Assembly (NCBI GenBank): GCA_004000155.1
Contig: RCSS01000809.1
Location: 6,337 to 38,708 of the forward strand
DNA: 32,372 nt
Direction of reading: 5' to 3'
Origin: Tubulinosema ratisbonensis
Taxonomy: Eukaryota > Microsporidia > Tubulinosematidae
Shown: in pieces, positions 2,517 through 31,837 of the stretch
Layout: every line of letters starts with the position of its first letter
How positions within the stretch are numbered: position 1 is the stretch's first letter
Translations under genes and position numbers: made by a program
The notes under the pieces: generated by a model
What the model was told of the DNA's origin: nothing
Seen by the model: only the letters and a program-made list of their open reading frames with translations
Database searches by the model: none

Positions 2517-2978
2517 ATGCTATTGTTATTTTTTACATCTCTTATAAAAGCCGCAAACAAAAGAATGGCTAAAGATTATATTAATCAAACAAACAAAACT
2601 ACTAATCGTACAGACCAAAACTCCGTTCAAGTATGTAATAACAGGAAACGTAAACTCAAAGATTCTGATTTTACAGATCGATCTATGATTTCTGAATCAA
2701 AACGAATTCGGTGCAAAAAAGAAATCAACAAATCAAATTTAAAAAATAAAAAGAATGCTACTGAGCAACATGAGTTTAATAACATTCCTTTGTTTGTACA
2801 CGAATATACTCTTGAAGATTCAGATGAAGAATACCGACCGATAAGTAGTCAGCAGATTCATAATAAAGAAGAACTAGAAGTAGGTTCACAACCTAGAAAA
2901 AATAATACAAACAATTCAGTAAACACCAATTCATCTCTAGATACAAAAGAGAAAAATAAATTTTCTTTTCTTTATTAA
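2517..2978 (+). CDS. Short member of the C-x-K-R secreted-type family (N-terminal block only)
   Basis: This encodes 153 residues. It opens with a hydrophobic leader (MLLLFFTSLIKAA) followed immediately by Asn-Lys-Arg, matching the leader plus Lys-Arg layout of the larger proteins starting at 7929, 15736, 18260 and 25252, although Ala replaces the usual Cys. Basic patches follow (RKRKLKD near residue 43, SKRIRCKKE near 60), then an acidic run (LEDSDEEY near 98) and an Asn/Ser/Thr-rich tail ending at a clean TAA. The conserved C-terminal domain with LFPE and F-I-F-E-x-[RK]-C is absent, and I see no continuation in other frames downstream. It may be a truncated paralogue or a naturally short one. 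Export is inferred from the leader. Confidence 0.55.
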   Translation: MLLLFFTSLIKAANKRMAKDYINQTNKTTNRTDQNSVQVCNNRKRKLKDSDFTDRSMISESKRIRCKKEINKSNLKNKKNATEQHEFNNIPLFVHEYTLEDSDEEYRPISSQQIHNKEELEVGSQPRKNNTNNSVNTNSSLDTKEKNKFSFLY

Positions 2979-3758
2979 GTAAATTTACATAAAAAAATTG
3001 GTAAAGTAAAATATTAAATGAACATTATTTCGTAAATTTAAAAAAAGATAGTTAAATAATAAATGATTATTTCATCTTAAAGTTTCTTTTGGTTTATTTT
3101 TTATTCACTGACTAATCAATATTTTTATTGATTTTTAATTCTTAAACAATAAAAAAACTAAACATCATTTTAATGGTGTAATTTGTTTATATTTATTTTT
3201 GATTATTATTTTTTACCAAGCAACAATATTTTACTTCATTAAAGTATATGTTCAAAAAAATAATAAAATAAATATTTTTAATTTAACCAAATCAATTAGT
3301 AAAATTTGTATATTTTTTAGAAAAACTTCATTACATTTAATTTTATTTTCTTGGAAATATAATTTTAAAAATTGTGTGTTTTATTTTATAATCTTTTATA
3401 TTCAAAATTAAATTTTACATTTTTAAAATATTTTATTTATTTTTACAGTGTATGAAATTAATTAAATATTTTTTATTTTTAAAAAAAATAAAAAATATTC
3501 TATTTTAAAATAAACTAAGCATTGAATTTTAAACAAAACTATTTAAAAATTTTTTGCATTTTAAATACACTTATTTTTTAGATTACTCTTTTACGTTCTA
3601 AAACAAAAAAAATGAGTTTTTTTCATGCATTGAAAATACAAAAAATTAATTTTTTTATTATTTTTATAAATTTATTTTTAAATTTTTATAATTAATTTTA
3701 TTTTTATTTGATTGGTCATTTCTAGATTTATTGTTTTTATTTACTACCCCAATACAAA
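2979..3758. other. AT-rich spacer
   Basis: Almost pure A/T with homopolymer runs. Open frames here begin at TTG and translate to Ile/Phe/Tyr/Asn-rich chance sequence. A CCCC block at 3747-3750 belongs to the E2 gene. Confidence 0.7.
3747..3750 (+). promoter_or_regulatory. C-rich start-proximal block (CCCC) of the E2 gene
   Basis: CCCC lies 8 bases upstream of the ATG at 3759, in otherwise C-poor sequence. It supports 3759 as the start rather than an internal Met. Confidence 0.45.
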
Positions 3759-4232
3759 ATGTCTACAAACCAAATGCAATCCAGGCTTTTCAGAGAAAAA
3801 AAGAACTTTGAGACTAATCCACCACCAAATGTCATGGCAGGATTACATAACGAGGATGACTATACTAGGTGGTGGGGGTGTATATTTGGTCCTTTAGANA
3901 CCCCTTACGAAAACGGAATGTTTAAATTAGAAATCAATATTCCTGCCACATACCCATTCAAACCACCTGATGTTAAGTTTATTACCCCAATATTCCATCC
4001 TAATATCTACGAAGGAAATATTTGTTTAGATATTCTAAAAGATAAATGGTCACCAGCCTTGAACATAGAGAAGGTTTTACTTTCTATATCCTCTCTTTTA
4101 TGTGAACCTAATCCTGAGGATCCTTTAGATAATAATGCAGCACAACTTTATAAATTTAACAGAGAGAAGTTTAATGCGAAGGCAAAGGAAATTACTTGGC
4201 AGCATGCGATTTCTAAAGATGATTGTAATTAA
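3759..4232 (+). CDS. Ubiquitin-conjugating enzyme E2, UBC4/5-like
   Basis: A full-length single-domain E2 of 157 residues (family core about 150). It receives ubiquitin from E1 as a thioester and passes it on with an E3. Visible hallmarks in order: the TPYENG turn (residues 48-53), [10 protein letters not shown] (65-74), the HPN triad (80-82) that stabilises the oxyanion, catalytic Cys89 in GNICLDIL, the following KWSPAL, then LLSISSLL and EPNPEDPL, and a C-terminal helix (YKFNREKFN). The SPAL and PNPEDPL segments favour the UBC4/5 class over UBC1/UBE2K. Base 3899 is n; the codon is GAN, so residue 47 is Asp or Glu. It lies 76 bp upstream of the Rvb2-like gene on the same strand. The fold call is firm; the subclass is likely. 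Confidence 0.95.
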
Positions 4233-4308
4233 ATGGTTTAAATAAATTAAATAAAAAATAAATAAATTAAATAAAAAAATTAAATAAAAAACAAATTAGA
4301 TTTTAACC
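4233..4308. repeat. Degenerate AT tandem repeat between E2 and the Rvb2-like gene
   Basis: The 76-bp spacer consists mainly of about three imperfect units of the type AAATAAATTAAATAAAAA (roughly 4240-4291). It must hold the E2 mRNA end and the start region of the next gene. The start is preceded by TTTTAACC, a weaker C-bearing block than those of eS17 or E2. Confidence 0.5.
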
Positions 4309-5226
4309 ATGTCTCTTGAAAAAACAACAAAATTTCCTTTAATCATATCAGGTCCTACTTGTTGCGGTAAATCAGTTTTAGCCTCTAAATACACAGGTCA
4401 AACAATCCACTCAACACAACTAAAAAGAAAAGACATGTACCACTACCTGTTAAACATATTTAGGGACAACGTAATACTAAACTACTCTTCTGTCTACGAA
4501 GTGATTGAAGGGAAGGTTATTAACATTAATAATAATTCAATCACACTAAAAAATGACGAGGTAGAGTCTGTTTACTCAACAGGGCCACTTTTTAGAGCTG
4601 CTTTGATCAAAGAAAATGTTAATTTAGGTGATAATATTAGATTTAACATTTCTACAGGTAAACTTAACAAAGTAGAAGAGATCGAAAAGGATGGCGANAT
4701 GCAAAAAAATAAAACAATTGTCTCAGAAGTTTCTCTTTTAACTATCGATAACCTCAACTCAAACACAAACATTTTATCTTTAAACAAAATAAGTGACTCA
4801 ATAAGAAAAACAACCAACAAAAATGTAAAAAACAGTTTAAAAAACACAAGCTCTCTAAAATTAAATTACTTAAAAATAGAAGATATTCATTTATTAAACT
4901 TAGAAGAATTAAATGTAATTAATGATTTATTGTACGAAGATTACAAACCTAATNTAATTTTTACAATCAATTTTGATAAACTAAGCNTAGAAAAAAAAGA
5001 TACAAAATTGTTTAGCAAGTGTGAAGAGATTAGTTTAAAAAAGGAAGATTTGATTGAAAAAATTTTGAATGAAAAGAAGGTTGGAGATGTTAACTTGGAT
5101 GAGAATATTAGGTTATTTTTGAAGAATCATTCTGATAGGTTAGATGATGTTATTGATTGTGCTAAGATTGTTAGTGTTGATAAGAAGAAAGGATTTGAGA
5201 AGCTGATTAGTGAGNTTAAAAAATAA
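4309..5226 (+). CDS. Reduced Rvb2/RuvBL2-like AAA+ protein with altered ATPase motifs
   Basis: The 305 residues align in order with eukaryotic Rvb2 (Reptin), an AAA+ subunit of INO80/SWR1-type remodellers and R2TP, but the protein is about a third shorter (relatives about 450-470). It starts almost at the P-loop (GPTCCGKS, residues 15-22), so the usual N-terminal ~60 residues are missing. Next come HSTQLKR (34-40), the start of the OB-type insertion (VIEGKV, 65-70), VESVYSTG and LGDNIRFNISTGKL (85-119; Rvb2 relatives have a similar GD...TGK stretch), then VSLLTID (141-147). The Walker B site reads KIEDIH (189-194) where Rvb proteins have a DEVH core, so the acidic pair is swapped. Sensor 1 would be FTIN (218-221). 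The Leu-Asp-Arg of the Arg-finger region reads FSKC (235-238). ATPase activity is therefore doubtful. Four n bases (4698, 4954, 4987, 5215) leave residues 130, 216, 227 and 303 uncertain. The start is the first ATG after the spacer. Confidence 0.75.
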   Translation: MSLEKTTKFPLIISGPTCCGKSVLASKYTGQTIHSTQLKRKDMYHYLLNIFRDNVILNYSSVYEVIEGKVININNNSITLKNDEVESVYSTGPLFRAALIKENVNLGDNIRFNISTGKLNKVEEIEKDGXMQKNKTIVSEVSLLTIDNLNSNTNILSLNKISDSIRKTTNKNVKNSLKNTSSLKLNYLKIEDIHLLNLEELNVINDLLYEDYKPNXIFTINFDKLSXEKKDTKLFSKCEEISLKKEDLIEKILNEKKVGDVNLDENIRLFLKNHSDRLDDVIDCAKIVSVDKKKGFEKLISEXKK

Positions 5227-5279
5227 ATTTATTTTTAAANTTTTATTTTTTTAAATCATTGAAATAGATAAATTAATTA

Positions 5280-5326
5280 AAAGATCTTTGTGTGGTTTTC
5301 TCATCCTTAGGCAACAAAAAAAGATA
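5280..5326 (-). repeat. Fragment of the 212-bp dispersed repeat
   Basis: The segment from AAGATCTTTGTGTGG to TTAGGCAACAAAAAAAG matches the reverse complement of the first ~45 bases of the copy at 9842-10056 (which reads TTGTTGCCTAGGGATGGG and then ACGAAGATCTT). The match stops abruptly at AAGATCTT, so only this end is kept. It starts about 50 bp after the stop of the Rvb2-like gene. Orientation is the same as the copy at 14908-15118. Confidence 0.6.
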
Positions 5327-5408
5327 AAGTATTTTTAAAATAACTATCGTAGAAAATAATATTAATTATTTTCTAGAAAAAAGATTATATTTAAATAAAT
5401 TTAAAAAT

Positions 5409-5552: not shown

Positions 5553-7928
5553 GTAGTTAAAAATAAAAACATTTAAAATCTTTCTAAGAAAAGTTATTTT
5601 GAGGCAATTAAACAAAAGTTTTTACCAATTTTATGTGATGTTTATAATTTATAAAATAAAATCAAAAAAACACGTTTTAGGATTGATTGAGAAAATAAAC
5701 TTATGAGCAAAAAAAGAGAAAGATATGAAGATTACTTAACATCATTTGATAAAAATACTAATAAAAATTTAATTTAAAAACAAAAGTTAACGAGAACGCA
5801 ATAATTAAATTAATTATAATTTTAGTTGAAAAGTAACAACGTACTTTTCTGAGAAAAAATCGTAGGGAAATATTTATTTACAATATTTTTTAATTATTAA
5901 AAATTCTTTTATTTTTAAGTTGTTTTTTAATATAATTGTGTGTTTTAAGATTATAAAATTCAAATAATAAGATGAAACTCTTTATTTCTAATGTAAAAGT
6001 AATACCTGTCTTTTAGTTTATTTATTATTGTTATCTCCTTTAACTGTTTATTCCATACTCTGTCTTATTTGTTAATTATTCTTGGGGGATTAGTTTTTTT
6101 TTCTAATATTTATCATTAAGCTTTAAAAAACATGTCATAATTTCACGACAAAAAATGAGTTAAATCTATAAAAAATTACATATTTGAAGTTAGGAATGAA
6201 AAGGTTAGAAATATTTTGAAAATAAAGCAAATATTACGAATCAAAAGATTTTTAATGTTTTAATGAAAAGTTTAAATTAAAATAAAGTTATAAAACTAAG
6301 TCTTGAAATCTTCTTTTTTGACTTGTAGCATAAAGATATCTTGTATACTAAAATATAAATAAAAGAGTATTTACTTTTTAATTGTTTGTTGCAAAGAGAA
6401 ATTATGTTTTGATTAAATTTAAAAAATTATTACATATTTGAAAATTCAATTTTTTACCAGAAAATTTATAAATATTTTTGACAAGATTAATGAATTTTCT
6501 TTAACCACTTGACGTTTATAAAAACATCAGTTGATTTACTAAATTTATTGCGTTTAAGTAGTGCAAAGCAAAAAATTGTCTAGAAACTTCAACAAATGCA
6601 TCAAGTGTGGTTTTAATGATTTAAAAATATTCATATACCTTAATATTCTTATTCTTTGCATTTTTAAAGATTAACATAAAAATTGATAGCTCATTTATAT
6701 AATGTATTTTTAAACAAAAAATTAAAGTAAAATTGCAATTATTCGTTTTTCGCTTTCAAATTTAAACATAAAAGACGTTTTAAATTTTACTATATTAAGA
6801 ACATTTTGTTAAACTTTAAACGTTCATAAATGTTTTATTGAGTATTTTTTATAAAATAATTTTAGAATTTTTAAATGGGAGTAGATTACATCAAACTTAA
6901 AAAAACAATAATACATATAAAAATTGAATGCCTTTAAATTTTTAAAGATTGAGTTAAAGATTTTATTACTGTAATATCATCTAAGAAATTATATTTGATA
7001 AATTGTTTAAAGCTTTTAATTTTTTTTTTGAATTTAAAATCATATTGGAATCAAATATTAGGAAATATAAAGGAAACTTAAACTATGTAATTATACTGAT
7101 TTATGTACAATGTTTAAAAGCATAGGTTTTATAAAAAATAAGAACCTTTAAAAATTTTACACGAACAATTCAAAAATATAGAAGATTGAAAAATATAAGG
7201 GTTGACCAACCCTGATCAATCCGTTTAAAATTATTAAATTTAAAAGAAGCATGATTAATTTAAAATTTTGATTAAATCCTTTTATCTTATCAATCTGACC
7301 AATTTTTATATACCCACAATAGCGATAATCTATAACTCAAAAACGGAAATACCCCTTATTCTCCATAGTTGACCTTGATTCACATATTACAATATAAGTT
7401 CGAAAACAATTATGTGCGTTATATTTTATTTCTTACCTTTAAGAATTTTTCAGACACAAAACTTTGAACACAGAAATGCTGTCGGCATAAAAATATTTGA
7501 AAATTTTACTTAATTTCTATATTTAAAGAGGTTTTCTTGAATAATTTAATTAATTTAAACTTTTATTGGTAAATGATATTATTTATTGTGTTTCTAATAA
7601 TTTATGACAAAATTGTTCTTATGACTGTTTAAGTATTCCCATGAAACAAATTAATACGGTTAATATTTAAAAACTATTATTAATGAACAATTGGGTTAAA
7701 GTTTTGGTGTAAATTTAAATTGTAATTTTACTCAATAAATATTGTTTTTATTTCTAAAAACTGTTAAATTAGTTAAAGATTCATTTTTCTTATAAAAAAG
7801 TTTCGTTTTTTGCAAGAAATTCTTTAAGCATTTAAAAAAATAGACGTTTTCGATTTTTCTAAACAATTTTTTCAAATTTACGCTTATCGATAAAAAACAA
7901 ATATTTATAAAAAAATTGCTTTGTGTGT

Positions 7929-9778
7929 ATGATTCTAAACTTTCTAACTATAATCTTTTGTTCTAAACGCTTATGCGATAACAAAAAAGAAACTTTAACA
8001 AAAAGAATTAAGTACGATCATAGTAATTTTTTAGGGAATAGTGAACAGAATGCATCTACCATTGACTTGATGTTGTTAGATGAAATTCCGGATATTAATA
8101 AAGGCTTTTTGGATAATCAACCAAGCAAAATAAATAGCCAGCCAAACGTAAACTATGATGCCCCTCATAACTCTCAATATTTACCAAGTATTGAATGTTT
8201 GGTCAATAACAAAGACAATCCTTTAGTTGAATGTTTCAATGAATTTAATACTCCTGTTTCTAAAAATGAATCAGAACCAGCAAATAATTTTATTTCTATT
8301 ATAATTCAATCTAATCTACTAACCGAATCAAACATAGTAATTGAAAAAGGTTCGTCTGAATTTACTGGTCAATCTATCGAACAAGATAAATGTATTTCAA
8401 AGGATGCAAGAATTGATAGGAATAATATTATCGATTTGGAAACAATAGGACTTAGTCGTGAAGATTTACCATGTAATTATGGCTTAGATGAAACTAATAG
8501 CTTGCAACAACCTCAAAATCAAACTTTCGTAAATTTCCCAGGCTTCTCATCATTAATAGAAAATTTAGAACAACTTCCATTAAATTTTTTAAAAGATAAA
8601 ATCTCAAATACATTTACATCTTATAATGAAAAAGCAAAATACCCTTGTTTAGATTTGCTTTTGTATGAAAAAATTGATATTGCAAAGGAATGTAATTATT
8701 TAGAATCAGACTTGTCAATCAGATTCAGCAAAATCTATCTTTTTTCTTTAAAGTTACAATTCCCCGCTTTTGACTTTGAACAAGATATTATCAATGATAA
8801 TGATCGAATTGAAAAGTTAGTAGGATTTTTAGATATACTGATTTTTAATAAAACACTAAAACAAGCGCTTTTAATAAACAACGATGAGTTAAAATTACAT
8901 AGAAATGAGATAAACGAAGATTCGAATGATAAATTATTACATAATATAATTGAAAACTTTAACAAAAATATGAGGATATATGTTTGTGAGATGGAAAAAT
9001 GTTTTTCTCGCTGTTTTTCCTCATATTTTGTTGAATTAAGTTCAGAATTTTATGTTTTAATGAAGTTTCTTTCAGAGATAGACTTTTTAATTATGTAAAC
9101 AGTTTTTTTAATCATAAAAAAAATTCTATTATGTTAGTATTATTTCCGGAAATGGGAGTGTTCATTGAATATTTACTCAAAGCATCTCCTAGATACATCT
9201 ACAAAAAATTGCATTTATTTATTTCTTCTTTTGCCTTTAAATTTCACTTGCTAAAAGGAAACCTTAAACACGTATTTAATCAACAAAATAATAACTCTTC
9301 GTTCAGAATTACAGACTCCAACTTTATAAATTTTTTTATTTTTGAAATGCGATGTTTTATATGTTATTGGTCATTTATTATTTTTAACAAATCTAAGCCA
9401 AAAATTAAGTTTTTTATGTACATAACATTTATAAGTTTTCTTAGGTTGAATAAAATGGAAATTTTTAAAGATACCAAATTCGATGATTATATTACTCCCG
9501 AAGATTTTTTTAACTCAAAAGCGTCCAAAAGAATAGGTATAGAACGCATTAAATTCCTAGAAGAACATGACAAAAAAAATGAATCTGTGTTTCATGAACT
9601 TTTATCTCTGAAAAATAGTGATATTGATTCGTTTTTTGATTTTAAAAAATTTTTATTAGATAACAATATTGATAATACCTATACACAAAGTGTGATTAGT
9701 AAATATTATGAAAATTCTAAATTTGATGAAAAAATTACTAAAATTACAACTAAACTCAAAGAATATCTTTCAGATTAA
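7929..9778 (+). pseudogene. C-x-K-R secreted-type family member interrupted by one frameshift
   Basis: The start is the ATG at 7929; a GTG two codons earlier is in frame but less likely. The leader MILNFLTIIFCSKR matches the family signature (hydrophobic run, Cys-Ser-Lys-Arg), followed by the basic patch TKRIKYD and a polar acidic middle. The frame ends at a TAA at 9096-9098. A second frame then carries the rest of the conserved C-terminal domain: SIMLVLFPEMG, later FIFEMRC (near 9336-9356), ending at 9778. Aligning both parts to the proteins at 18260 and 25252 places the break at about 9055-9075, and the offset equals one lost base. The two halves together are about the size of the intact paralogues (roughly 615 residues). 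There is no other lesion, so an assembly error is as likely as a dead gene. I do not recognise the family. Confidence 0.7.
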
Positions 9779-10870
9779 TATAAAGACCTCCTTTATTTTC
9801 ATTTTAATTAAAAGTTTAATTATTTTTTAAACAATTTTTTTTTGTTGCCTAGGGATGGGAAATCCATACGAAGATCTTTTCGTTCTACCTTCTTTATAAG
9901 AATGTTTATACCTAGTTGACGGAAACATACGGTAAAATATGTTTCCCATACTTAGGTAGAGCTGAAGATACTGTGAGCTTTTCACCCGCTAAAACCTACC
10001 CCCGTGCACTCTATTGACTGCCTAAGTCTACCTTACCTTGCAGGCTTTGGTTACAATTTTTAAAACCATTATCATAAATTAATTAAGCTATAAACATAGA
10101 TTTAAAAATCATAAAATAAATGATTGAAAATTTTTGTCTGATTTTAAATGTAGCAACTAGAAATCTTCTTTTATTTGTTTTATGATTTTAAAAAATAGCA
10201 TATAATTTATTTTAGATATTTGTTTACCTTTGTAATTTTCTATATTTTTTTGTCTTTAAAGGCGAGAAGTTTATTTTTTCCAAGTTTTATATAAATTTTA
10301 AAAACAACTCCTTTTTATATAATTTTCAATGATCATTTGACAAATAAACGATTTTGCTGATATAAATACAAGATGAAAAACTAAATTCTAAATAGATTAG
10401 ATTTATACAAAAAATTATTTAAAAATCTTTATCTTTCTAAAGAGAGTAAATGTTTTTATTTCTTTTATACGCCAAAATAACGTCTGAGTTTTTTTAAAAT
10501 AATCCTTTGGTATTTAGTCAAAAATTAATGCCTTAAAAATAGATCTCCTAATATTAAATTGATTAAATTTAATTAAACATTAAAAAGATTTTTTTGACTA
10601 TTTTTTTAATAAAATATAATGAAAATTTGTAAAATTATTTTGTTATTTGAGTGAAAACCAATAAACTAAAAAAGAAATGTTAAATTTTTTCATTTGTTAT
10701 TTTGTTTGAAGTATCTAAAAAATTTAAATATTTTTTTATTATTTATTTTAATCTTTTTAAAATCATAAATATCAAAAATCAAGTTTTTTATTGATTAAAA
10801 AAAATAATAAAAAAATATTTAAATTTTCTGTTTCAGATTAAAATAAAAAACAAATGTATTTGTTTATAAA
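9779..10870. other. Spacer holding one full copy of the dispersed repeat
   Basis: The repeat occupies 9842-10056. A short stretch before it (AAAGACCTCCTTTATT near 9782) resembles sequence beyond the same end of the inverted copy (GAGAGGTCTGTATA, 15151-15164), so the shared homology may start about 40 bp further out. The remaining 800 bp are AT-rich, with nothing recognisable. Confidence 0.6.
9842..10056 (+). mobile_element. 212-bp dispersed repeat, copy 1 (MITE-like)
   Basis: A 215-bp block that is visibly richer in G and C than its surroundings. It matches the reverse complement of 14908-15118 along its whole length and a diverged copy at 22322-22553. Shared landmarks include ACGAAGATC, CATACGGTAAAAT, TTCACCCGCTAAAACC and CTTTGGTTACA. 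The ends read TTGTTGCC and GGTTACAA. In copy 2 the matching end is TTGTTACC, which is a near inverted repeat of GGTTACAA, so very short terminal inverted repeats are possible. It has no coding capacity. It lies 63 bp after the stop codon of the family member at 7929. Most likely a non-autonomous DNA element; a SINE or other repeat remains possible. Confidence 0.65.
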
Positions 10871-11164
10871 ATGATAATCATAGCTTTGTTTCTTTTTTTG
10901 ACATTCTTTTATTCCTTAATTATCTCATTAGCATTTGCTTTGCTATTATTACTAGAATTGAATTTAGAAAATATCAACACAAAAATTAAAGAAAAATTTA
11001 ACAAAAAATTAGAAAAATATAAACATTTATTCTCTTTTAGATACAGATTGGAGAAGAGACAAAGGTTTTATTATGATTCTATTAACCAGAAGATACCAAA
11101 AAAATCTTTATTACAAAAAATTACAAGAATTCTTTGTTGTTACAAGGTAAATAATTCTGTATAA
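10871..11164 (+). CDS. Small hypothetical membrane or secreted protein, lysine-rich tail
   Basis: An ATG-started frame of 97 codons ending in TAA. Residues 1-30 form one long hydrophobic segment (LFLFLTFFYSLIISLAFALLL), long enough for a signal anchor. The rest is strongly basic (KIKEKFNKKLEKYKH, YRLEKRQRFYY) and ends with ILCCYKVNNSV. If made, it would be a single-pass membrane protein with a basic soluble part. It lacks the Cys-x-Lys-Arg junction of the large family, and no C-rich block precedes the start. No homologue is recognised. The sharp switch from hydrophobic to basic is more protein-like than the chance frames here. Confidence 0.4.
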   Translation: MIIIALFLFLTFFYSLIISLAFALLLLLELNLENINTKIKEKFNKKLEKYKHLFSFRYRLEKRQRFYYDSINQKIPKKSLLQKITRILCCYKVNNSV

Positions 11165-13419: not shown

Positions 13420-14907
13420 AAATCTAAATTTCTGATATTTTTACAAAATACTCATGCTTTAAAATCTGGAATATTTTTATTCAATAAGGAAAATAGTTAA
13501 AATTCATTTTTAAATTTTTAAAAATTTTTTTGTATGAAAATTATTAAATTTGAGGGTAATCTTTAAATATTATTAGGTATTTTTTATGTTGGTTTTATAT
13601 TTTGTAAATTTATAATGTTTTTGAGTAGATTAGAAATATTCAGTTATTTTAGAAAATTTTAGAAAATTTTAGTTTTATCTTTATTTCTTTTTACAAAAAA
13701 AAATTTAACTAATAAGCACCCAAGAGAAATAAAATTTAATGATTAAATAAAACAAAAAACATTATATTTGAAAAATAAAAGACTTTTTTGGAACCTCTTA
13801 GAAATCAGAAAGCGTCGTGAACACCGCATTGTTATCTGGAAAATTCTTTTATTTTAATTTTTTATAAATTGTCACTATAGGATGAAAATTTAGATTTTCA
13901 AATGAAAGTTGTAAAAACATGTGTTTATGTATGTTTAATCATTATTGTTTTTTCCTTAATATCTTCTCTTTTATAAAACTAAAGTATTTTTTATTTAAAA
14001 GGTATTGTTAAGTTTAGAAGTAGGTCACATTTTATGACACAAATATTTTTAGACTTTTATATAAATTTTGTTGTGGCCTTGAAAAATTACATAAAAAATG
14101 AATAAGTTGGTTATTTTTTGCTAAAAATAAATTATTTTCTTGCTTTTTAAAATCCACTGTTATAAAAAACATTTTACTTTTGCAAGTAATTGCTAAGAAT
14201 ATTAAATAGAAAAAAGATAAATTTACTCAGTCAATAAATACAAATGTCTTGAATTAAAACGGAAAATTTTTCTACAAAACGGCTAAATACACTTATAATA
14301 AAGAGACAATAAATTAGTTTATATTTTTGATGGGTGTGAAATAAACTTATGGCTTGTTATGAGTACTCAACTGCTCTCTAATTTTAATAAGACACAAACC
14401 AATATAAAATAACAATTTATTTAAATTCTTTTTTTTATTTAATTATTGTAACGGAATAAATGCTCTAAATGAAATTCTGTATATTTTAGATTTAGATCAC
14501 ACTCTTTTATTTTATACAAAAACAAAATTTGTTTAAAATGGTTGTCGCATGTATGTTTTTATTGTTAAATAAAATTTTTGTATAAATTTTATATTTAGCA
14601 CTATTTCTTACAAACAATTGTTCTTAAGAAAAATTCTATAATAAAATTTAAAAATTGAAGCTGAAAGACTTATTTGCTTAAATAAAGAACCAATAATAAA
14701 ATATAAAAATTTTAACTAAATGCATTAATAAATTTAAGTTTTAGTAAATAAATGGATGGATAAAAAATTTTTATTTTAGTTGTTTGTAAAATTAAAACCA
14801 TCAAAACACAAAAGATTGAATACTGATGGGTATATGCTCTTTTATAGAAAAAAAAAGATTTAAAAGAGTACTTTAAATATTTATTTGATAAATGATGTCT
14901 TAATCCT

Positions 14908-15118
14908 GTAACCAAAGCCTGAAAGGTAAGGCAAACTTAGACAATTAATAGAGTACACGGAGTGGGTTTTAGCGGGTGAAAGGCTTGCTGTATCTTGAAC
15001 TATATCTACATATTGGAAACAATTTTACCGTATGTTTCTGTCGACGAAGTATAAATATTCTTGTAAAGAAGGTATAGCGAAAAGATCTTCGTGCGGATTT
15101 CCCATCTCACGGTAACAA
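14908..15118 (-). mobile_element. 212-bp dispersed repeat, copy 2, inverted
   Basis: The reverse complement of copy 1 (9842-10056), aligned end to end with scattered substitutions and short indels. Landmarks on the plus strand are GTAACCAAAGCCTGAAAGGT, TTTTAGCGGGTGAAAG, TTTTACCGTATGTTTC, AAAAGATCTTCGTG and GGTAACAA. The similar total length of the two copies, with no shared sequence beyond GTAACC on one side, supports a defined element boundary. Copies 1 and 2 lie on either side of the 10-15 kb spacer in opposite orientation, so pairing or inversion between them is conceivable. Confidence 0.65.
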
Positions 15119-15727
15119 AAAAATGATTTCTTAAGAAATAATAGATTTGAGAGAGGTCTGTATAAATAAAACGACGTTCAGTTGTCATTCTTATCAAATT
15201 ATAGAAGAAATTCAATATGATTTAGAACATTAAAAAATTTGTCAATATTTAGTTAACGTATCATCATAAATATGCCATATTACTTAGCTAAAATAATTAT
15301 TTAAAACAATAGTAATATGTGACTTATACAATTTTTATTTCCAAATAAATAAAACAAAGATTTATTTATATTCACAATTTCTATCCGCAAGTAATCTATA
15401 AACAGCCAAAATCAAACTGCATTTGCTAAAAATCTTTAAAACAAATATTTTTTTTAGTTTAATGACAAAGAAAACTAAAATAAATATATATCAAAAATAT
15501 ATTTAAACCATTTAGAACATCTTTAATTTTATAAATAATATCCTTTTATGATATGAATTGTTTTTCACATTTTTTTCTATTGATAAAGTGATAAAAATAA
15601 AAAGAATATATAATAAAATTTTAAAATTTTTGTGCTAAAAATAAAAAACTAACAAAAATTATATGAATTTTTTAGAAAATTATTTTACATTTTTATCTTT
15701 TATCACTGATTGATTGAGACATTCCAT

Positions 15728-15733: not shown

Positions 15734-15735
15734 CC

Positions 15736-17582
15736 ATGTTTATCAGTATTATAGTCTTAAAAATACTATTTTGCACAAAAAGAAAAAAAGCTGATTCAGA
15801 AAGTGAAATCCTAGGATTATTACAACCAATTGATGAATATGAAAAAGTAGAAACTATTGATTGGGAAACTTTAAAAGCATCTGTTTAGGAACATGTGGTT
15901 CGCCCAATCAAAACACGAATAATGACAATGAATACATATCGCTAATTGATACTTCCTTCGATTGGCCGATAATAAACAATGGTGATAAGATTGTGAATGA
16001 ATGTAATGATAAAAATTTTGATAATTCTGAAGTAAGCTGAACAAGTTCCTTTTCTTCCACAGAAACTATTTCACCAGAGATAACCAATACTTTGTATGTA
16101 ATTATTGAAAAAATGAGTGACGAAGAAATTCAACCATCTACATCATTAAATGATCAGAATTCGCCATATTTAAAATTTTATAACCCCCTTTCTGACTTAG
16201 AATTGACGCCCAAAGCTGCTATTGTAACTGCTGAAAAAGAAGAGGAAATACTCCAAAACCAAGATACCACTCCAAATCAACCAATGAGCAAAAACAAAAA
16301 AATTAAACTTAATGATGATAACGAAAACATCAATTCTGATGCCGAAACCAATCGAAATATTTTAATTAATTCAGAAAATAAAGAAAGTAAAAGTTTAAAC
16401 TTTACTAAACTTAATAGCTCTTCATTTGAAAAAACCTTTAGCAAACTTTACAAGTTCGATCAGAACATTAAAATTTCACTTTCCGAAAACATAAAAATAA
16501 AATTAGTAAATAAAACATATAATGTGGAATCTTATTATTTTTTAAGAATGAATAGATTGTATAAATTTTTAACAGGATCATTTTTTCCGTATAGAATATT
16601 TTTTAAAAGCAAAAAAGATAAGGGTTCAAAAGAAAAAGAAAGAGAGCTACAAAAAATAACTGCGTTTTTTCGAAAGTACATTAAAAATTACAAATTTCAA
16701 AAAGAAACAGAATATTACATGAATACAGTCGATAAGAATATCTCAATTTCAGATCTTACAAATATATTTAACACATTGATTATGAACTATTTTAAAGATA
16801 TTGAGAAGACTATATCTTTAAATAAAAGATCGTATTTTGAAACAATGTCCCAAGACTTACGTAAAAACAAAGAAATCGAAAAAAAGGAAGTCTTAGTAAA
16901 CTATTTTATAAAATTTTTTGAAGATGAAAAATATAGCATTTTTAAGACTCTTTTTCCTGAAATTTCTATTTTTATAACTAAACTATCATCACTTAGCAGC
17001 CTTAAATATGTCTTTAAAAGATATCAAATCTTTTTAAATTTAGTCGTCTTTAAATTTATTTATCTTAAAGGGATGATAAAGTTTATAGTTCAGAAAAACA
17101 GAAATATTCCTAATTGGTTAATATCAGATTCAAAAATGATATTACGATTTATATTCGAAATGAGATGTACCTTTGCTTTTTTTGGATTTAATTTAGTAAT
17201 AAGTGAAAACAACCAGAGATTTTTGGTTTATAGAGCCTTTGTTACATTTTTAAGATTGCTTAACTTTGATGTAGCCAAAGATACAGCAATATTTTATGAG
17301 ACTTTTGATCCAATTATGCCGGATTTGAAAAATTATAAGTTGATCTTTTTAGAAAACGGATTGGAAGAAAGACAAAAAAGTAGATGCAGATATTTAAAAA
17401 TTAAGAAAGTAAACGACTACCGAATACTTTTGTTTTTTGAAGCAGATTCCAATAATATCTGAAAAGAATATTACGAAGTTAGTTATCTCATACTTGAAAA
17501 TATAAAAAAAGCGGGTATAAAATCTAAAGAATTATTAGTAAAGACAACATCTGAATGTAAAAGATATTTCTCAAATAATTAA
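15736..17582 (+). pseudogene. C-x-K-R secreted-type family member with a frameshift and two in-frame TGA
   Basis: The ATG at 15736 opens a leader of family type (MFISIIVLKILFCTKRKK) that runs 50 codons to a TAG at 15886. Homologous reading resumes one frame over (offset equal to one missing base), is stopped by TGA at 16038-16040, continues past it through NKKIKLND and the conserved C-terminal domain (TLFPEIS, then FIFEMRC at about 17150-17170), meets TGA at 17460-17462, and runs 39 more codons to TAA at 17580-17582. That tail matches the C-terminal ends of the paralogues in position and composition. The longest single frame (16092-17462) begins at a TTG and has no leader, so on its own it is not a credible gene. 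Dead gene is the simplest reading. The absence of decay elsewhere, and both internal stops being TGA, are worth noting. Confidence 0.75.
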
Positions 17583-18259
17583 ATCTTTTGACTTAAAACA
17601 AAATTTATTTTCAACTTATTAAGTTTCATTAGTATTTTTATATTTGTAAAAAATATTTTCTAAATATGATTTCTAATTTTTGTTTTCTATGGTTTAGAAG
17701 ATATGAATATACGTAAAATTTTATTATATTTATTTTTATAATCTTAACTTGAAATAAATATCTAAAAAGTTAAATTTTATGGTTGACAATAGATTTAACG
17801 ATGAATCAGATTATTGTTGTATTTTTTGTTTGAAATATTAAAATTGACTAAAGAAGTCAATCTTTATATTAACTCTTCATTGTTATATGTAAAAAAAATT
17901 CAAATGGTAATTTAAGTTATAAATTAACTTTCGACTAAAAAATGTTATACTAAATGAAAAAATCTTAAATTTGCATCTAAATTCCTTGTAGTTACTATAA
18001 AGTTTTTCATTTTAATAATTTTTGAAAACAGAAAATTTTTTAAATCATATAAAACTTACTATATTTTTTAGTTTTTATAATTGCATCTTTATGACAACCC
18101 ATACTATAAAAGAGCAAATATATGAAAAAAATTTCTAAATTTAACATCAATTTTTATATTGTAGTTAAAAAGTTTACTAAATCCTTATCTTAACAATCTT
18201 TATCAATTATTAAAAAGAATTCTGATAAGCTCATATATAAACTGAAAAATTTTGATACC
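17583..18259. other. AT-rich spacer
   Basis: 677 bp between two family members, with no repeat copy, coding remnant or clear motif. TACC lies directly before the next ATG. Confidence 0.65.
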
Positions 18260-20539
18260 ATGAAATTGATTATGTATTTTATAATTGAGATAATTTGTCC
18301 AAAAAGAAAAGAAATAAAAGGTTTAGACGAAGCGGCTAAAAAAATAAAACTTTCAGAACAAGAGCTAGAAAATTCATTTAACCTTAGTGTCTACCCTAAA
18401 CAGACACTTATTGACTGTGTAAATGGTATAGAAACAAATTTACAAGACGAAATATTTCCATTTTTTCAAGTGAATCTAATACTATTGAATAACGAGGCTT
18501 TAGATGATCTCTTTGATATTTTATCACGATTGGATTACGAAAATTACAACCACTTATACAGCTCGGAAAAAATAGAAAATGAAATCACAACTATAGATGA
18601 AAACAATCAAACAATAAATGCAAATGAAGAACTTTGTGTGAATTTTTCATGTAAAGTTAGTGAGAAAAGCAACCAAAGATCTGAAAGTATACATATCGAC
18701 TCTGAACTTTTATCAGAAAATGAAAAAAATTCACCTCAACAAGACATTGAAACTACAGATCTAAAATATGTTATGGAAAATTCTCATAATAAACACGTAC
18801 AAGATGAAATTAAAACAACAAATCTATGTGAATTAATATCAGATAGAAATCGTATATCTTGTAGAGGAGTTAACAACAGCGTACAAAATTTAAGTAATAA
18901 TACTTTTTTGGCTTCCGAACAAGAAGAAAATGTTCCTGTAAATTTGAATTGTAATAAAACAAATGATCCCAATTTAGTAAAATTAGATAATGGTAATTTA
19001 TCTGCTAACAAAAAACTTGTAGAAATCTCAAAATCTAGATTAGAAGATCTAGATTTAGATAACCAAGATGTTACTGTAAAACTAATAAAAAATTCCACGG
19101 CTACTGAAAATAATTCCGAACAAAAATTTTTTAGATCAGCATTTAAGAAAACTGATTTTTCAGATAAAAGCAGAAAAAATACCCCTGATTTTGTAAATCT
19201 AAACAATGATAACAAAACTGCTAAAATTAAACTCAAAGAAATGTTAATAAAAAAATTAAAATCTAAATTAGAAGATCCTAATTTGAGGAAAAAGGATGAT
19301 ATAAAAGAAATTATAGAGAATGTCGTGCCTCTAGGCGATATCTCCAAGCGAAAATTTTTTAGACCAAGTTTCTCTGATAATGATAGATTAAACGAAAACG
19401 CCGAAATAAACATTAAATTATACTCTAATATTAAAATTATAAAAGAAATAAATTATCTCGAAGAAAAAACATTCATTGTCTTTAATGAATATTACCACCA
19501 TCTATGTGGATTAAAGTTTCCTGTTGAAATTTTTAATAAAAACTTCAACACATCCTCTGCCGAATATGTTGAAGGCATTGACGAAATTAAAAATTTTTTC
19601 TATAAATATATAATTAACATGCCAATGTTGAGGTCCATAGCAAGTTTGAATAAATCAATTAGCCAAAATGTAGGAGTTACACTTGAATTTTTAATCAATC
19701 AATTTAATCAAATATTTATCAAATATGTTGAAAACATACAGAAAGTAATATTTTCATGTAAAAAAGAATATTTAAAAAAAATAGAAAGAGAATATACTGA
19801 TAACAATAAACACATAAAGATTAAAAACTTAAGAAGTATATATGATAGTTTTCTTATGCAAAAAGAAAATTCAATTTTGCTTATATTGTTTCCTGAACTA
19901 AAAAAATTCATATTTGAACATAAGAAAAAAATTAACAAAGTTGAGGCATTTAAAACACTTCATATTTTTCTAACAATGCTCGCAACTAAATTTCATTTCT
20001 TAAAAGATAATTTTCGGTCTTTGTTTCTAAAACTAGAGCAAAATCCTTCCTGGCATATATTTCAATCTAATTTTATAAGTTATTTTATTTTTGAAATGAA
20101 ATGCACAATAATCTTTTTTTCCTTTTATTTTATACAAAAAATTAATTTTAGCAGAAAATTGCTCCTCAGAACGTTTATAATTTTTTTAAAGCTCTTAGAT
20201 TTAGAAAATTTAAAAAAAGCATATTTTTATCGCAATATATTTGACCCAACGGGTGATTGCAAAAAATATTTTGAAAATATTGAACTACTTACACTTCCAA
20301 TATTTAATCAGCAACATATAAAGATTTTTGACTTTTTTAAAATTAAATCAATATCGTATCCTCATATTAGAAAATATTTTGACTTTTGTAAAAATGATTT
20401 GAATAAAAACATAGACGAAGAAAATTATTTAAAAAAAGAAAAAAATTTATTAAAATCAAGCTATTCAAAAAACCCCTATTTGGCTAAACTTAAGTATATT
20501 ACTCAAAAGCTTAAAAATTACCTTTTTCAACTTGATTAA
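18260..20539 (+). CDS. Large intact member of the C-x-K-R secreted-type family, with internal duplication
   Basis: A single frame of 759 residues from ATG to TAA. The leader MKLIMYFIIEIICPKR has the family Cys-Pro-Lys-Arg junction at residues 13-16, followed by the basic patch AAKKIKLSE (25-33). Residues 40-380 are polar, acidic and Asn/Ser/Lys-rich, and contain two diverged copies of a ~72-residue unit (235-306 and 307-378). Each copy has a KSRLED- or KSKLED-type core and an S-x-[QR]-KFFR motif. The conserved domain follows: LFPE at 543-546, FHFLKDNF near 577, FIFEMKC at 609-615, then a Lys/Leu-rich C-terminal helix. The same-strand neighbours are paralogues. A secreted or host-directed role would fit but is not shown. 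Homologues outside this window are not recognised. Confidence 0.8.
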   Translation: MKLIMYFIIEIICPKRKEIKGLDEAAKKIKLSEQELENSFNLSVYPKQTLIDCVNGIETNLQDEIFPFFQVNLILLNNEALDDLFDILSRLDYENYNHLYSSEKIENEITTIDENNQTINANEELCVNFSCKVSEKSNQRSESIHIDSELLSENEKNSPQQDIETTDLKYVMENSHNKHVQDEIKTTNLCELISDRNRISCRGVNNSVQNLSNNTFLASEQEENVPVNLNCNKTNDPNLVKLDNGNLSANKKLVEISKSRLEDLDLDNQDVTVKLIKNSTATENNSEQKFFRSAFKKTDFSDKSRKNTPDFVNLNNDNKTAKIKLKEMLIKKLKSKLEDPNLRKKDDIKEIIENVVPLGDISKRKFFRPSFSDNDRLNENAEINIKLYSNIKIIKEINYLEEKTFIVFNEYYHHLCGLKFPVEIFNKNFNTSSAEYVEGIDEIKNFFYKYIINMPMLRSIASLNKSISQNVGVTLEFLINQFNQIFIKYVENIQKVIFSCKKEYLKKIEREYTDNNKHIKIKNLRSIYDSFLMQKENSILLILFPELKKFIFEHKKKINKVEAFKTLHIFLTMLATKFHFLKDNFRSLFLKLEQNPSWHIFQSNFISYFIFEMKCTIIFFSFYFIQKINFSRKLLLRTFIIFLKLLDLENLKKAYFYRNIFDPTGDCKKYFENIELLTLPIFNQQHIKIFDFFKIKSISYPHIRKYFDFCKNDLNKNIDEENYLKKEKNLLKSSYSKNPYLAKLKYITQKLKNYLFQLD
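18962..19395 (+). repeat. Internal tandem duplication inside the 759-residue protein
   Basis: Two adjacent ~216-bp units (18962-19177 and 19178-about 19395) encode related 72-residue segments. Shared features in order: Asn-x-Pro-[NDF] near the start, a Leu/Asn-Asn-x-Asn segment, KSRLED or KSKLED, an acidic or Ile-rich stretch, then KFFR-[SP]-[AS]-F. At DNA level the best match is the TTAGAAGATC region (near 19039 and 19268). The unit is not seen in the other paralogues, so the expansion is specific to this copy. Confidence 0.55.
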
Positions 20540-23127: not shown

Positions 23128-23242
23128 ATTTCTATATAAAAAATCATTAGTTATCATTTAATAAAATAATATTCTTGTTAGCTCAAATAAAAACTCTTTG
23201 CCGTAATTATTGTCTGAGTTTTCGATTAAAAAATCATTAAAT

Positions 23243-24572
23243 TTAATATCCATATTTAAATATTTTTTTTCTTATAATGTTATAACCAAGCTGAAATCTT
23301 GTGTGTTTTATCCTAGTAATATCTTCTTCGTCTTTTAGTTTCTTAATTAGTAATGGTAAGCTATAACGGGCGGTATTGAAAGAAGAATTTAAAACGCTAG
23401 CTAATCTTCAATGGAGTTATTCGTCTTTGATTTATTTTCTTCAACTCAGTGTCATGCATGCCATAATTCTGGTTAAAATCTTGGGGTAGAATTAAAATTT
23501 AAAAATTTATCATAAAAATATTCATATAATGGTTTAGGGCTAAGGAAAACCTAAGACTTTCTTTTAGTTCATTAAAAGTCATTTGTAACTTATTATATTG
23601 AACAAAAGACATGAAAGGTAAGGCTTTAGTTTATGATTTAAATGTGTAATATGGTTTTGTATAAAGAAGTGAGTTTTAGGCTCTGAACTTTTCTACATAT
23701 AAAAGTGATAGTGAAAAATACAGCCAGAAATACTTATATTAGAAAAAACCTACTATAGAGTGGAAATCGACGCGTGCTCAAAGTCACATTTGATCAAGGA
23801 TGGTCTTAGATTGTTAATTAAATTATTTAAAGTTATAAAGGCTATACTGTATGTCGACTTTAGTCTATTCTTCATAACCAAAAATTCACTCAGAAATTCG
23901 TGATGATCAACTAAAGCGCTGATAGTGTATAGTTGTTGATATGAGGTAGGTACTGTCTTTAGTGTTCGGTCAACAGACCATATAAGATTGTTTAAAAGTA
24001 AAAATTATCCATATTCGAAAAAAATTTTAAAATCATTATTGTAAGTCAATGTTCTTAAATTTTCAGGCCCGTGTTGATAAAAAGGAGAGAACAAATATGT
24101 TACGCTAAGTTGCTGACTTAATTTGATAGAAAGATATATATAGAGATTAAGATTAAACACGCGGTTCTAACCTTCTTAAAGCCCTTTAAATTTTTTCAAA
24201 GTATTCCACCAATATTATTGTGTTTATATCACTTTCAACTGAAACTGAATTTATAATACTTCTGATGGAGTCTAAGATTCGGTAATTTTTTTTTCATTCT
24301 TTTAATTTCACCTTTTTACAATAAGATTATGAGAGGTCAGTGATTATGCTCAATAATCGAGCTTTCAATGTTATATGTAGTGTTTCTTTTAATTATAACA
24401 TTGCAGTTAAGATTAATATCCTTCCAAATTGATTTCTTGAGCTCAATCGTTTATTATTATGGACAAAATCATCTAAGATTAGCTGGTCGTTTTTTTGTTT
24501 TTTCTTAGTAATATACTTTATTATAAAAAATTTAAAATTATTAAAAAGTGTGACTTTTGGAACTCGAAATTA
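23243..24572 (-). pseudogene. Decayed MULE-type transposase with FLYWCH zinc finger
   Basis: Read on the minus strand, pieces in alternating frames follow the order of a Mutator-like transposase. An N-terminal FLYWCH-like part includes LILDDFVHNN, a Cys at 24405 and IIEHNH (24340-24360). The catalytic domain begins WSVDRTLKT (WSVD at 23969-23980, first acidic residue of the DDE triad) and continues YQQLYTL, VMKNRLKSTYS and IKCDFEHASIS (CDFE at 23777-23788, second Asp). It is followed by the SGCIFHYH signature (about 23708-23730), and a C-terminal part LPLLIKKLKDEED ends at TAA 23245-23243. In-frame stops and frameshifts occur throughout, so it cannot make a transposase. No clear terminal inverted repeats were found. 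The block is noticeably less AT-rich than its flanks, consistent with an inserted element. Confidence 0.7.
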
Positions 24573-25251
24573 TGCTGTGGGGATAAATATTCCGGGAACC
24601 ATATATTGTATTTTTAATTTATATTACAAACGTATTAGAGAATTATTAGCTAAAAACAAGTTGTTCTTAAATGCTTCATCTAACTAAACTACAAATTCAT
24701 CATGAGATTTACATCGCCAAAAGTTTAAGGTTATTTTAAATTCAGCATTTAAGTATAAATATTGATGCCGTTGTAAATAATTCTTAGAAATTTGAGACAG
24801 GTTTTGTTTATGTAAATATTAAATTATACAAAAATTAAGAAAAAATCCAATTGGATACTTTAAGTCTTCTTTCTAGATAATTAAGTGTTTATTAACGTAG
24901 AAAAATTCGCAAAGCAAAAAAGGGAATACTTTTATTAGTTCTAGTAAATTGTATGATTTGTTTAATTTTTATTTGTATAATTTCTTAATTCTTCATCTTA
25001 ATCAATAAAAGCACTTGCCTATTCTGCTTAAATGATATTTTCACATTCAAAAAGACCCAATAAATAAAAAAAAACATACAATATTAACTTATATCATTTT
25101 AAATTATGTTAGACTAGTGATTTTGTTTTTAAAAAATAAATAAAAATATAAACATTTTGGAATTCATCTTAATATCTAATTTAAAAAAAGAACTTAAAAA
25201 TTTTCTTGATAAGAGATAACAAAAGTATAAATTTTGAAATTTAAAGCAGCC
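24573..25251. other. Spacer between the MULE remnant and the next family member
   Basis: 680 bp of mainly AT-rich sequence. The first ~40 bases (CTGTGGGGATAAATATTCC near 24575) are GC-richer and may still be part of the MULE, either its 5' region or its end, but no inverted partner is seen near 23.1-23.2 kb. Nothing else is supported. Confidence 0.5.
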
Positions 25252-27069
25252 ATGCTTCTGCTCATGATTATAATAAACAAAAGTATTTGTTCCAAAAGAA
25301 ATTTCAGATCTTCCGAGGAAGAAATGTCTAAAAAAATAAAATATGATTATACAACAAATTCTAGCAATACAGAATATAGCGAAAGTTTGGATAAATATGC
25401 TCCGAATCTGTATCAAAGCCTTCCATTAGCATCTATTTCAAGAGAAGAATCTTTAAAAAGTAAAAAACACTCAATAAATATAGAAATTACATATGACGAA
25501 GTAGTTGAAGCAATTTTAAAAGTTGACCCAGAATTTTCTTTTATTTTTGAAAAGTCGCCAGAAGCTTGTACGTCACAAGAAATGTATCCCAATGAAAAAA
25601 CATCGTTTAATATTCAATCTAAAGATCATTTATTATCATCAACAGAAGTATCTCAAAATGAAAAAACCACAAATTTGTATCAAAATAATGATCACCAAAA
25701 CATAAGTTTAAAGGCCACAAATCAAGATTCAGAAGACTCTTTTGAATCTGATAGCAAAGAAAGTAGCGATTCAGATGAATTACAGGAAGACGATAATGAA
25801 TTTATTATAGTTGAAAATGAAGAATTAAGTATGACGGGTATAGCATCAGAAAACAACGAGAATAGTTGCGGTAAAGATAATATCCTTAGTTCAACTAATC
25901 CACAAATATCAGTTTCGAATAATAACGAAATATCGTTTAACAAAACATTCAATAGAAACACAAAATATAATAACGAAATAACAGTTGAATTATCTAAAAT
26001 TATAAAAATAAAAATTGTCGAGGCCACCAAAGCATTTGAGGACAATTTCTTTTTTAGATTAAACAAAGTTTACTTTTTTTTAACTAAGACATTGTTTTTT
26101 GATCTTGTTTTTTGGAGTGAAAAGTCACAAGATAATGAAAACTCAAGGTCGTTTCAAGAAATAACCCAGTTTTTTCAACTCTACATTAAAAACAAAAGCT
26201 TAGAAGAAAACCTAATAAAAATCATAGAAGAAAGAAAAGAAGAAACGAATTTTAATGATTCGATAAAAAATTTTAACACACTGTTTAAAATGTTTATGGA
26301 AAAAATAAAATATTTGATCAGCACTAAAAGAAAGAATTATTTTCAAATTAAAACTACAGATAAACATGGGAATAAAAAAATCGATATTAATAAATATATT
26401 CTAATGCAGATGACTAAGCTGAAAAAAGATAAGAAAACGAGCATTTTATTTTTACTTTTCCCTGAATTGGATTATTTTTTCCAAGAAATAACTTCTCTTG
26501 ACAAATTTAATGATTGTTTTAGACTATGTCATTTGGTTTTTTCAATTGTTATCATGAAATTTTATTATATGAGAGATACTCTAAAAAGTACTGTTTTGGA
26601 AGGAAGTCAAATTACTCAATGGCTAATAACAGATTCTGACATTATTATGACATTCATTTTTGAAACCAGGTGTGTTCTTGCATTTTTTGGATTCAATTTA
26701 TTTACTGATAGATCAAAACAAAAGATTTTATTATCTAGAGCCTTTATTGCATTCTTAAAGGTTACAAAAATGAGAGTTTCAGAGGACACGAGCATATTTT
26801 ATGGTAATTTTTTAACAATAAAAGATGAACAGGGGACTAAATTATTTGACAATTTTGTAAAAGCAAAGAAAGACTATAAATATTATGAAATCATATCATT
26901 CTTTGATCAAGAAATTAATATTTTTTATAAAATAAACTCAACAAATCAAACAGAAACAGAACGGTTTAAAAATAATGTTGTATTAAATAATATTAAAAGA
27001 AAGGCGGAGAATTCTAAGAAAGATTTAAGAGAATTAACTACAGTATTTATAGATTATTTTTTACAGTAA
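25252..27069 (+). CDS. Intact member of the C-x-K-R secreted-type family (605 residues)
   Basis: The start is taken at ATG 25252. An upstream in-frame TTG (25234) would add six residues before the leader and is unlikely. The leader MLLLMIIINKSICSKR has the family Cys-Ser-Lys-Arg at residues 13-16, followed by EEEMSKKIKYDY with the basic patch. A polar region leads to a dense acidic-serine tract from residue 159 to about 184 (DSKESSDSDELQEDD), typical of casein-kinase-2-like sites. The conserved domain runs from about residue 245: LFPE at 402-405, FIFETRC at 468-474, AFFGFNLF at about 477, RAFIAFL at about 496, and a Lys/Leu-rich C-terminal helix. It is most similar to the broken copy at 15736 (shared WLI-[ST]-DS and FFGFNL). 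Function unknown. The leader suggests entry into the secretory pathway, and Lys-Arg could be a kexin-type processing site. Confidence 0.8.
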   Translation: MLLLMIIINKSICSKRNFRSSEEEMSKKIKYDYTTNSSNTEYSESLDKYAPNLYQSLPLASISREESLKSKKHSINIEITYDEVVEAILKVDPEFSFIFEKSPEACTSQEMYPNEKTSFNIQSKDHLLSSTEVSQNEKTTNLYQNNDHQNISLKATNQDSEDSFESDSKESSDSDELQEDDNEFIIVENEELSMTGIASENNENSCGKDNILSSTNPQISVSNNNEISFNKTFNRNTKYNNEITVELSKIIKIKIVEATKAFEDNFFFRLNKVYFFLTKTLFFDLVFWSEKSQDNENSRSFQEITQFFQLYIKNKSLEENLIKIIEERKEETNFNDSIKNFNTLFKMFMEKIKYLISTKRKNYFQIKTTDKHGNKKIDINKYILMQMTKLKKDKKTSILFLLFPELDYFFQEITSLDKFNDCFRLCHLVFSIVIMKFYYMRDTLKSTVLEGSQITQWLITDSDIIMTFIFETRCVLAFFGFNLFTDRSKQKILLSRAFIAFLKVTKMRVSEDTSIFYGNFLTIKDEQGTKLFDNFVKAKKDYKYYEIISFFDQEINIFYKINSTNQTETERFKNNVVLNNIKRKAENSKKDLRELTTVFIDYFLQ

Positions 27070-31833: not shown

Positions 31834-31837
31834 CTAC

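Follow-up and report, generated by a model that had tools for sequence, protein, structure and literature searches.

The window analyzed here is a 32,372-nucleotide stretch of the microsporidian Tubulinosema ratisbonensis (contig RCSS01000809.1, positions 6337-38708; C221:6337-38708 in our numbering), a pathogen whose host is Drosophila melanogaster (PMC6675976). Five loci on its plus strand (2517, 7929, 15736, 18260 and 25252) begin with a short leader ending in Lys-Arg, and four of them go on to a conserved C-terminal domain (Table 1). The window has a GC content of 22%. The draft genome, built from 454 and Illumina reads, comprises 7.56 Mb in 952 contigs with an N50 of 12,152 and 23.2% GC (PMC6675976); our searches covered 4.12 Mb in 236 contigs of this incomplete genome. 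Window loci are prefixed W where needed, C plus a number denotes a locus on a contig of the searched set, and L an extracted stretch.

The leaders end in CSKR (25252 and 7929), CPKR (18260), CTKR (15736) and ANKR (2517), as an original prediction made from the sequence had described, and the LFPE and F-I-F-E-x-[RK]-C sequences it pointed out are present in the open reading frames (ORFs) that carry the domain, at 9131, 16113, 18260 and 25252. Searched with the 25252 protein, the 16113 region matches at E 3.9e-49, 18260 at E 3.3e-16 and the 9131 ORF at E 1.3e-10. Of the four loci it called full-length, 18260 and 25252 are intact, whereas the frame of 7929 is broken and 15736 contains stops: besides the one that ends its leader ORF, a further stop lies at 16038-16040, and the match continues past the stop at 17462, with one TGA inside it. 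These frame breaks may represent real decay or, in part, sequencing error. The basic patches KKIKYD, KKIKLS and KRIKYD exist, but at 15736 the stretch 10-20 residues past the Lys-Arg holds no second patch; a KKIK patch comes later, inside the 16113 ORF.

The 2517 locus had been taken for a short family member. Its leader, Lys-Arg and basic clusters are there, but the domain is not. The protein has no relative at E ≤ 1 in the searched contigs of this genome, and a match to GxGYxYP_C (E 0.0038, below the family cut-off) was dropped as a chance match. Only its leader and a promoter element described below link it to the family, which does not establish membership; it could be a cut-down family member or a separate co-regulated gene.

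Table 1. Family-related features of the window, numbered from its first base.
Feature	Positions	Strand	Match
Intact member, 605 amino acids: leader, bipartite basic motif, variable middle, C-terminal domain	25252..27069	+	
KR-x10-KKIK bipartite motif of 25252, resembling a nuclear localization signal, residues 15-30	25294..25341	+	
GATAAG at -44 of 25252	25208..25213	+	
C-terminal conserved domain of 25252, starting near residue 250	25999..27066	+	
Intact member, 759 amino acids	18260..20539	+	
KR-x10-KKIK bipartite motif of 18260, resembling a nuclear localization signal, residues 15-30	18302..18349	+	
GATAAG at -36 of 18260	18224..18229	+	
C-terminal conserved domain of 18260, starting near residue 388	19421..20536	+	
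7929 member: leader, motif, middle and start of domain; frame broken before domain end	7929..9098	+	profile E 8e-22
KR-x10-KRIK bipartite motif of 7929, resembling a nuclear localization signal, residues 13-28	7965..8012	+	
CTTATC (reversed GATAAG) at -46 of 7929	7883..7888	+	
Remaining domain of 7929 member, in another frame	9131..9778	+	41% identity to C116b
Leader ORF of broken 15736 member, CTKRKK junction, stop at end	15736..15888	+	
Two TTATC pentamers (-43, -36) before 15736; no hexamer	15693..15704	+	
Domain ORF of 15736 member, KKIK patch in middle part	16113..17462	+	
153-amino-acid ORF: leader, NKR junction, basic clusters KRKLK and KRIRCKK, no domain	2517..2978	+	
CTTATC at -54 of 2517	2463..2468	+	

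A census with seven family-protein queries and a profile search of the extracted stretches found at least 27 loci with the domain on 15 contigs: 18 intact ORFs, four broken loci (7929, 15736, C157 and C193b, the last with its C-terminal tail in another frame), one locus truncated where its contig ends (C202) and four relics. This is a lower bound, as the genome is incomplete and only the best candidates were scored. With 27 loci, 18 of them intact, the family is large by a published definition, which asks for 10 or more homologous members per species (PMC5423893). Fifteen other members are 16-32% identical to the 25252 protein when aligned to it, and the closest pairs we met reach at most 41% identity; synonymous sites should therefore be saturated.

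Searches for outside relatives returned no named family. A Pfam scan of 16 members, a set without C191, C193a, C193b and the C107 proteins, gave a best E of 0.011, with three unrelated families hit by one member each, which is chance level, and the family profile found nothing significant among PDB sequences (best E 0.58). Single-sequence and 16-sequence profile searches of 5.8 billion proteins, a collection that includes Anncaliia algerae and other microsporidia, returned the query itself only; these searches needed shared five-residue words and scored the best 7995 candidates. The family is real, large and much diverged, and the description of it as an unnamed multigene family stands. Its proteins presumably sit in the deposited annotation as hypothetical proteins.

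The most distinctive feature of the family lies where the leader ends. Twenty-two members have a visible leader (C202 and the four relics have none, and W2517 is counted neither here nor among the junctions below), and in 15 of these the leader is followed by Lys-Arg. Counted from this junction, residues are basic in 47% of the proteins at position 1, in 0-13% at positions 2-10 and in 20% at position 11, and then in 53, 60 and 47% at positions 12, 13 and 14. Together, the junction Lys-Arg and the basic patch resemble a classical bipartite nuclear localization signal (NLS), for which the patterns KRX10-12K(K/R)(K/R) and KRX10-12K(K/R)X(K/R), as well as an X10-12(K/R)3/5 form, have been given (PMC3812174). 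The strict pattern, KR-x10-12-K[KR](x)[KR], is matched at 8 of the 15 junctions; shuffling the 40 residues behind Lys-Arg in 20000 draws gave a mean of 0.12 and a maximum of 3. A looser version is matched at 12 junctions (shuffle mean 0.70, maximum 5) and the X10-12(K/R)3/5 form at 11 (mean 0.46, maximum 4). Beyond residue 60 of the 22 family sequences, the strict pattern follows a Lys-Arg in one of 42 cases, in C8, a member that has no Lys-Arg at its junction. The 12 proteins that fit the looser version are on average 10% identical to one another across the spacer, as against 51% across the second cluster and 9% over the 20 residues that follow. What the motif preserves is spacing and charge, and little else. 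The pattern supports the proposal that the basic patch is a host nuclear import signal, a function that remains predicted.

Cleavage after Lys-Arg by a kexin-type protease, which had also been proposed, is not supported. The pair stands just behind a short leader, so a cut there would shorten the mature protein hardly at all. The kept spacing between Lys-Arg and the second cluster, across a spacer so much less conserved than the cluster, speaks against a kexin site. More broadly, the proteins might be secreted and use the basic motif otherwise, for Lys-Arg processing, as a PEXEL/RXLR-like export element, or in binding nucleic acid or acidic lipid. We regard this as unlikely. The motif does occupy the position that host-targeting motifs have in other parasites, and a Lys-Arg pair is a kexin consensus, but two basic clusters at a fixed spacing around an unconserved spacer fit a bipartite NLS, and a cut after Lys-Arg would take off only a few residues past the likely leader end. 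The P-domain of proprotein convertases (PF01483) was not found in the 4.12 Mb searched of this incomplete genome, where the S8 catalytic domain was not searched for.

Members without the junction Lys-Arg bear on the same question. C8, C116a and C116b group together with support (96/93), and the 7929 domain is sister to this clade (96/93); 7929 retains the junction motif, and the three are without it. Their middles contain stretches with 9-11 basic residues in 22, a density with uncorrected shuffle P values of 0.028 for C116a, 0.0014 for C116b and 0.022 for C8. None of 12 other proteins tested falls below 0.05, W18260 coming closest at 0.058. The strict bipartite pattern of C8 is found in its middle. 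This suggests that the predicted NLS may have moved into the middle in this clade. A processing or export site at the junction would leave such dense basic stretches unexplained, although the presence of a basic cluster of four in six residues is not unusual in these middles.

Leaders were judged by hydropathy alone, using the best nine-residue window. A value of at least 2.0 is reached by 20 of the 22 visible family leaders, compared with 9 of 31 other ORFs, which had a slightly shorter search range. By this pattern the family is probably exported, as predicted. The leader comprises 12-14 residues before Lys-Arg in 11 of the 15 proteins with the junction, a length that C127, C191 and C193b share if translation begins at an inner Met; predicted signal peptides of the Nosema bombycis ricin-B-lectin (RBL) proteins have 12 to 27 residues (PMC9224602). 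Behind the leader and motif, the middle is rich in Ser, Asn and Glu, with 65.6% disorder-promoting residues compared with 50.6% in the domain. Helices in the domain are borderline hydrophobic, and in many members the conserved E-x-[RK] lies inside them. A low-confidence model of the 25252 protein also has a mostly helical domain, which we do not count as evidence.

The proteins could instead stay in the parasite, with the leader as a membrane anchor and the motif on the cytosolic side, serving as an NLS for the parasite nucleus or its inner nuclear membrane. A Lys-Arg directly behind a hydrophobic stretch favors the cytosolic side under the positive-inside rule, and the borderline hydrophobic helices of the domain would suit a membrane protein. 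The longest leader run free of Lys, Arg, Asp, Glu, Asn, Gln and His, however, is 4-11 residues in 14 of the 15 proteins and 14 residues in C7, which is short for a membrane span. Host-exposed proteins, moreover, are typically lineage-specific, diverged and equipped with targeting signals (PMC5423893). Retention in the parasite strikes us as rather improbable.

A second shared feature lies upstream of the genes. GATAAG or its reverse, CTTATC, occurs between -65 and -25 of 17 of 23 starts (the 22 family starts plus 2517), compared with 1 of 31 further ORFs, each encoding 100 amino acids or more, from the same DNA stretches (Fisher 3e-8). The pentamer GATAA/TTATC is found there at all 23 starts and at 4 of the 31 (Fisher 3e-11). 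Without 2517, the hexamer is present at 16 of 22 family starts. Shuffled family upstream sequences gave a mean of 0.40 and a maximum of 5 for the hexamer, and a mean of 4.35 and a maximum of 11 for the pentamer. For C127, C191 and C193b, leader spacing decided in favor of an inner Met, a choice that preceded the GATA count; with their outermost Mets the counts are 15 of 23 and 21 of 23. C67dist, with seven upstream bases, and L036, with no usable start, were dropped from these counts.

Several ORFs with a hydrophobic start have no GATA site (L019:780-1586, L019:6011-6412, L030:2390-3745 and L031:1872-2639), and the site is therefore not a simple mark of all secreted proteins. The two L019 ORFs adjoin a family gene and do not match the family profile. 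Among the searched contigs, one match to a GATA zinc finger was found, in a 150-amino-acid ORF on C144 (L034; E 4.6e-13). Its product is a candidate regulator that could act on the family. A study of promoter signals in microsporidia reports CCC-, GGG- and AAATTT-like elements, and in the portions available 'GATA' appears only in a primer list (PMC2803860); among the papers listed for a GATA link, no title or abstract opening reports one.

The family, its motif and spacing, the placed GATA site and the GATA zinc-finger gene are all observed in this analysis. On the strength of these sequence features, we consider it reasonably probable that the family proteins, expressed under GATA control, reach the cytosol of the host by secretion and are then imported into its nucleus. 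The short hydrophobic leader would take the protein into the parasite secretory pathway and then be removed. The mature protein would thus start with the bipartite NLS, consisting of Lys-Arg, approximately 10-12 mostly acidic or polar residues and K[KR]xK, followed by the long variable middle of disordered-type composition and the conserved C-terminal domain. Import into the host nucleus and action there would follow. With a GATA site approximately 45 bases before the ATG of most genes, one GATA zinc-finger factor could co-activate them.

That most copies are instead decaying and functionless, their shared features being leftovers of duplication, seems to us very improbable. Four broken loci and four relics among the 27 speak for decay, but 18 ORFs have stayed open despite pair identities of approximately 16-39%, and domain, motif and promoter site are kept while spacers and middles look random.

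Several observations weigh against secretion and host nuclear import under GATA control. The chief weak point is the presence of basic residues right behind the leader, where hydropathy is the only test of that leader: cleaved signal peptides seldom have basic residues directly behind them. Hydropathy is also compatible with membrane insertion of the domain helices. The motif is not universal, as 7 of the 22 leaders lack the junction Lys-Arg: C226 has KKK in its place, and no basic pair occurs at this point in C8, C116a, C116b or the three C107 proteins. W15736, C157N and C195b have Lys-Arg without a full second cluster. The shuffles used as a null ignore shared ancestry; likewise, the GATA background consists of 31 ORFs and sharing of the site could be inherited. 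As for a moved signal, at least one four-of-six basic cluster in the middles of C8, C116a and C116b is not unusual (P 0.54, 0.41 and 0.34, respectively), such clusters also occur in W18260, W16113, C226, C193a and C193b, and the three C107 proteins, which are short (456-460 amino acids) and without a long middle, have none past residue 20. An AlphaFold2 model of the 25252 protein, built on an alignment of the five window ORFs, reached a mean predicted local distance difference test (pLDDT) score of 34 and gives no pointer to nuclear action. Secretion and nuclear import are read here from sequence.

A second group of proteins offers a view of the family's possible origin. L016:8-1249 leads to this sister family of approximately 350-410 amino acids, with members on C67, C190, C84, C89 and C181 (stretches L035 to L039). 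Its C-terminal half aligns to the domain in a profile comparison (94.4% probability, 15% identity). Three of six sister-family starts reach a hydropathy of 2.0, no leader with a Lys-Arg junction was seen among them, and at the four usable starts the GATA hexamer is present in three and the pentamer in four. This suggests an older, putatively secreted fold, with the middle and the NLS gained later. More tentatively, and with rather less confidence than in host nuclear import itself, we can envisage one GATA factor driving a secreted superfamily, in which one branch of a shorter leader-plus-domain ancestor (compare the C107 clade and the 350-410-amino-acid sister family) gained the disordered middle and bipartite NLS and radiated as a host-nucleus set. 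In a tree that includes the sister family, with midpoint root and long branches, the place of the C107 clade is unresolved and the timing of motif gain is not shown.

Both secreted families restricted to one lineage and individual host-nucleus proteins have already been described in microsporidia (PMC5423893, PMC9224602, PMC3976299), and the family described here would belong to the former kind. In Nematocida parisii, signal peptides are predicted for three of the four host-exposed proteins that are specific to the nucleus (PMC5423893). For the large Nematocida gene families NemLGF1 and NemLGF5, which we compared by description only, the available portions of that paper describe neither a nuclear import motif nor a promoter element common to a whole family (PMC5423893). 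The NbRBL family of Nosema bombycis is a large secreted family of 52, nine of which have both a signal peptide and an NLS, and NbRBL28 reaches the host nucleus, a precedent for the route proposed here (PMC9224602). Unlike NbRBL, the members scanned here have no ricin-B-lectin match, and 15 of the 22 leaders carry Lys-Arg at one fixed place. The expanded leucine-rich-repeat family of the microsporidian Spraguea lophii is similar in that 37 of its 52 members have a predicted signal peptide; its describers report that the family shows no obvious conserved peptide motif for host targeting (PMC3749934), and the members scanned here have no leucine-rich-repeat match.

A comparable architecture is seen in the SVSP family of the apicomplexan Theileria parva, which likewise combines a leader, an unstructured variable part and a conserved C-terminus without known relatives (PMC2657828). 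An NLS is predicted in 78% of SVSP members and was functional in one protein; unlike here, the NLSs lie in the C-terminal region of the tested protein (PMC2657828). The members scanned here, unlike SVSP proteins, have no FAINT domain match, and no homology between the two families was found. Within the portions of the literature searched, no family combines an NLS at a fixed place behind the leader with a common GATA site. Host-acting proteins of microsporidia are hard to recognize by sequence. If the proposed route is correct, the fixed-place motif and the common promoter site would provide two sequence tests for host-nucleus proteins. Should the radiation envisaged above also have taken place, such proteins could be recognized in microsporidian sequences by their leader-NLS junction. 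With Drosophila melanogaster as host, fly cells allow direct localization tests.

There was no support for the idea that the family genes sit in DNA unusually poor in genes: in the window and family stretches, coding fractions run from 0.14 to 0.53 (a range that omits L011, which has none) and overlap the 0.23-0.67 of six background stretches. One family gene is adjoined by a UDP-N-acetylglucosamine pyrophosphorylase gene, which is 67% identical to that of Anncaliia algerae and at most 43% identical to the other matches listed.

The window also contains a dispersed repeat of approximately 220 bases, at 9835-10055 (plus strand) and inverted at 14907-15148, with a partial copy at 5279-5325. In the searched contigs it has at least 40 near-full-length places, the window copy included and the others 88-94% identical, with 40 of 285 candidates scored; it has no Rfam match. 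On the minus strand, 30237-32372 holds reverse-transcriptase-like fragments in several frames, which we take to be a decayed retroelement. A 97-amino-acid ORF at 10871-11164 has a long hydrophobic N-terminus and no Pfam match, and a 238-amino-acid ORF at 28834-29550 resembles the RNA polymerase I A49 family at a level below the cut-off (E 6e-4).

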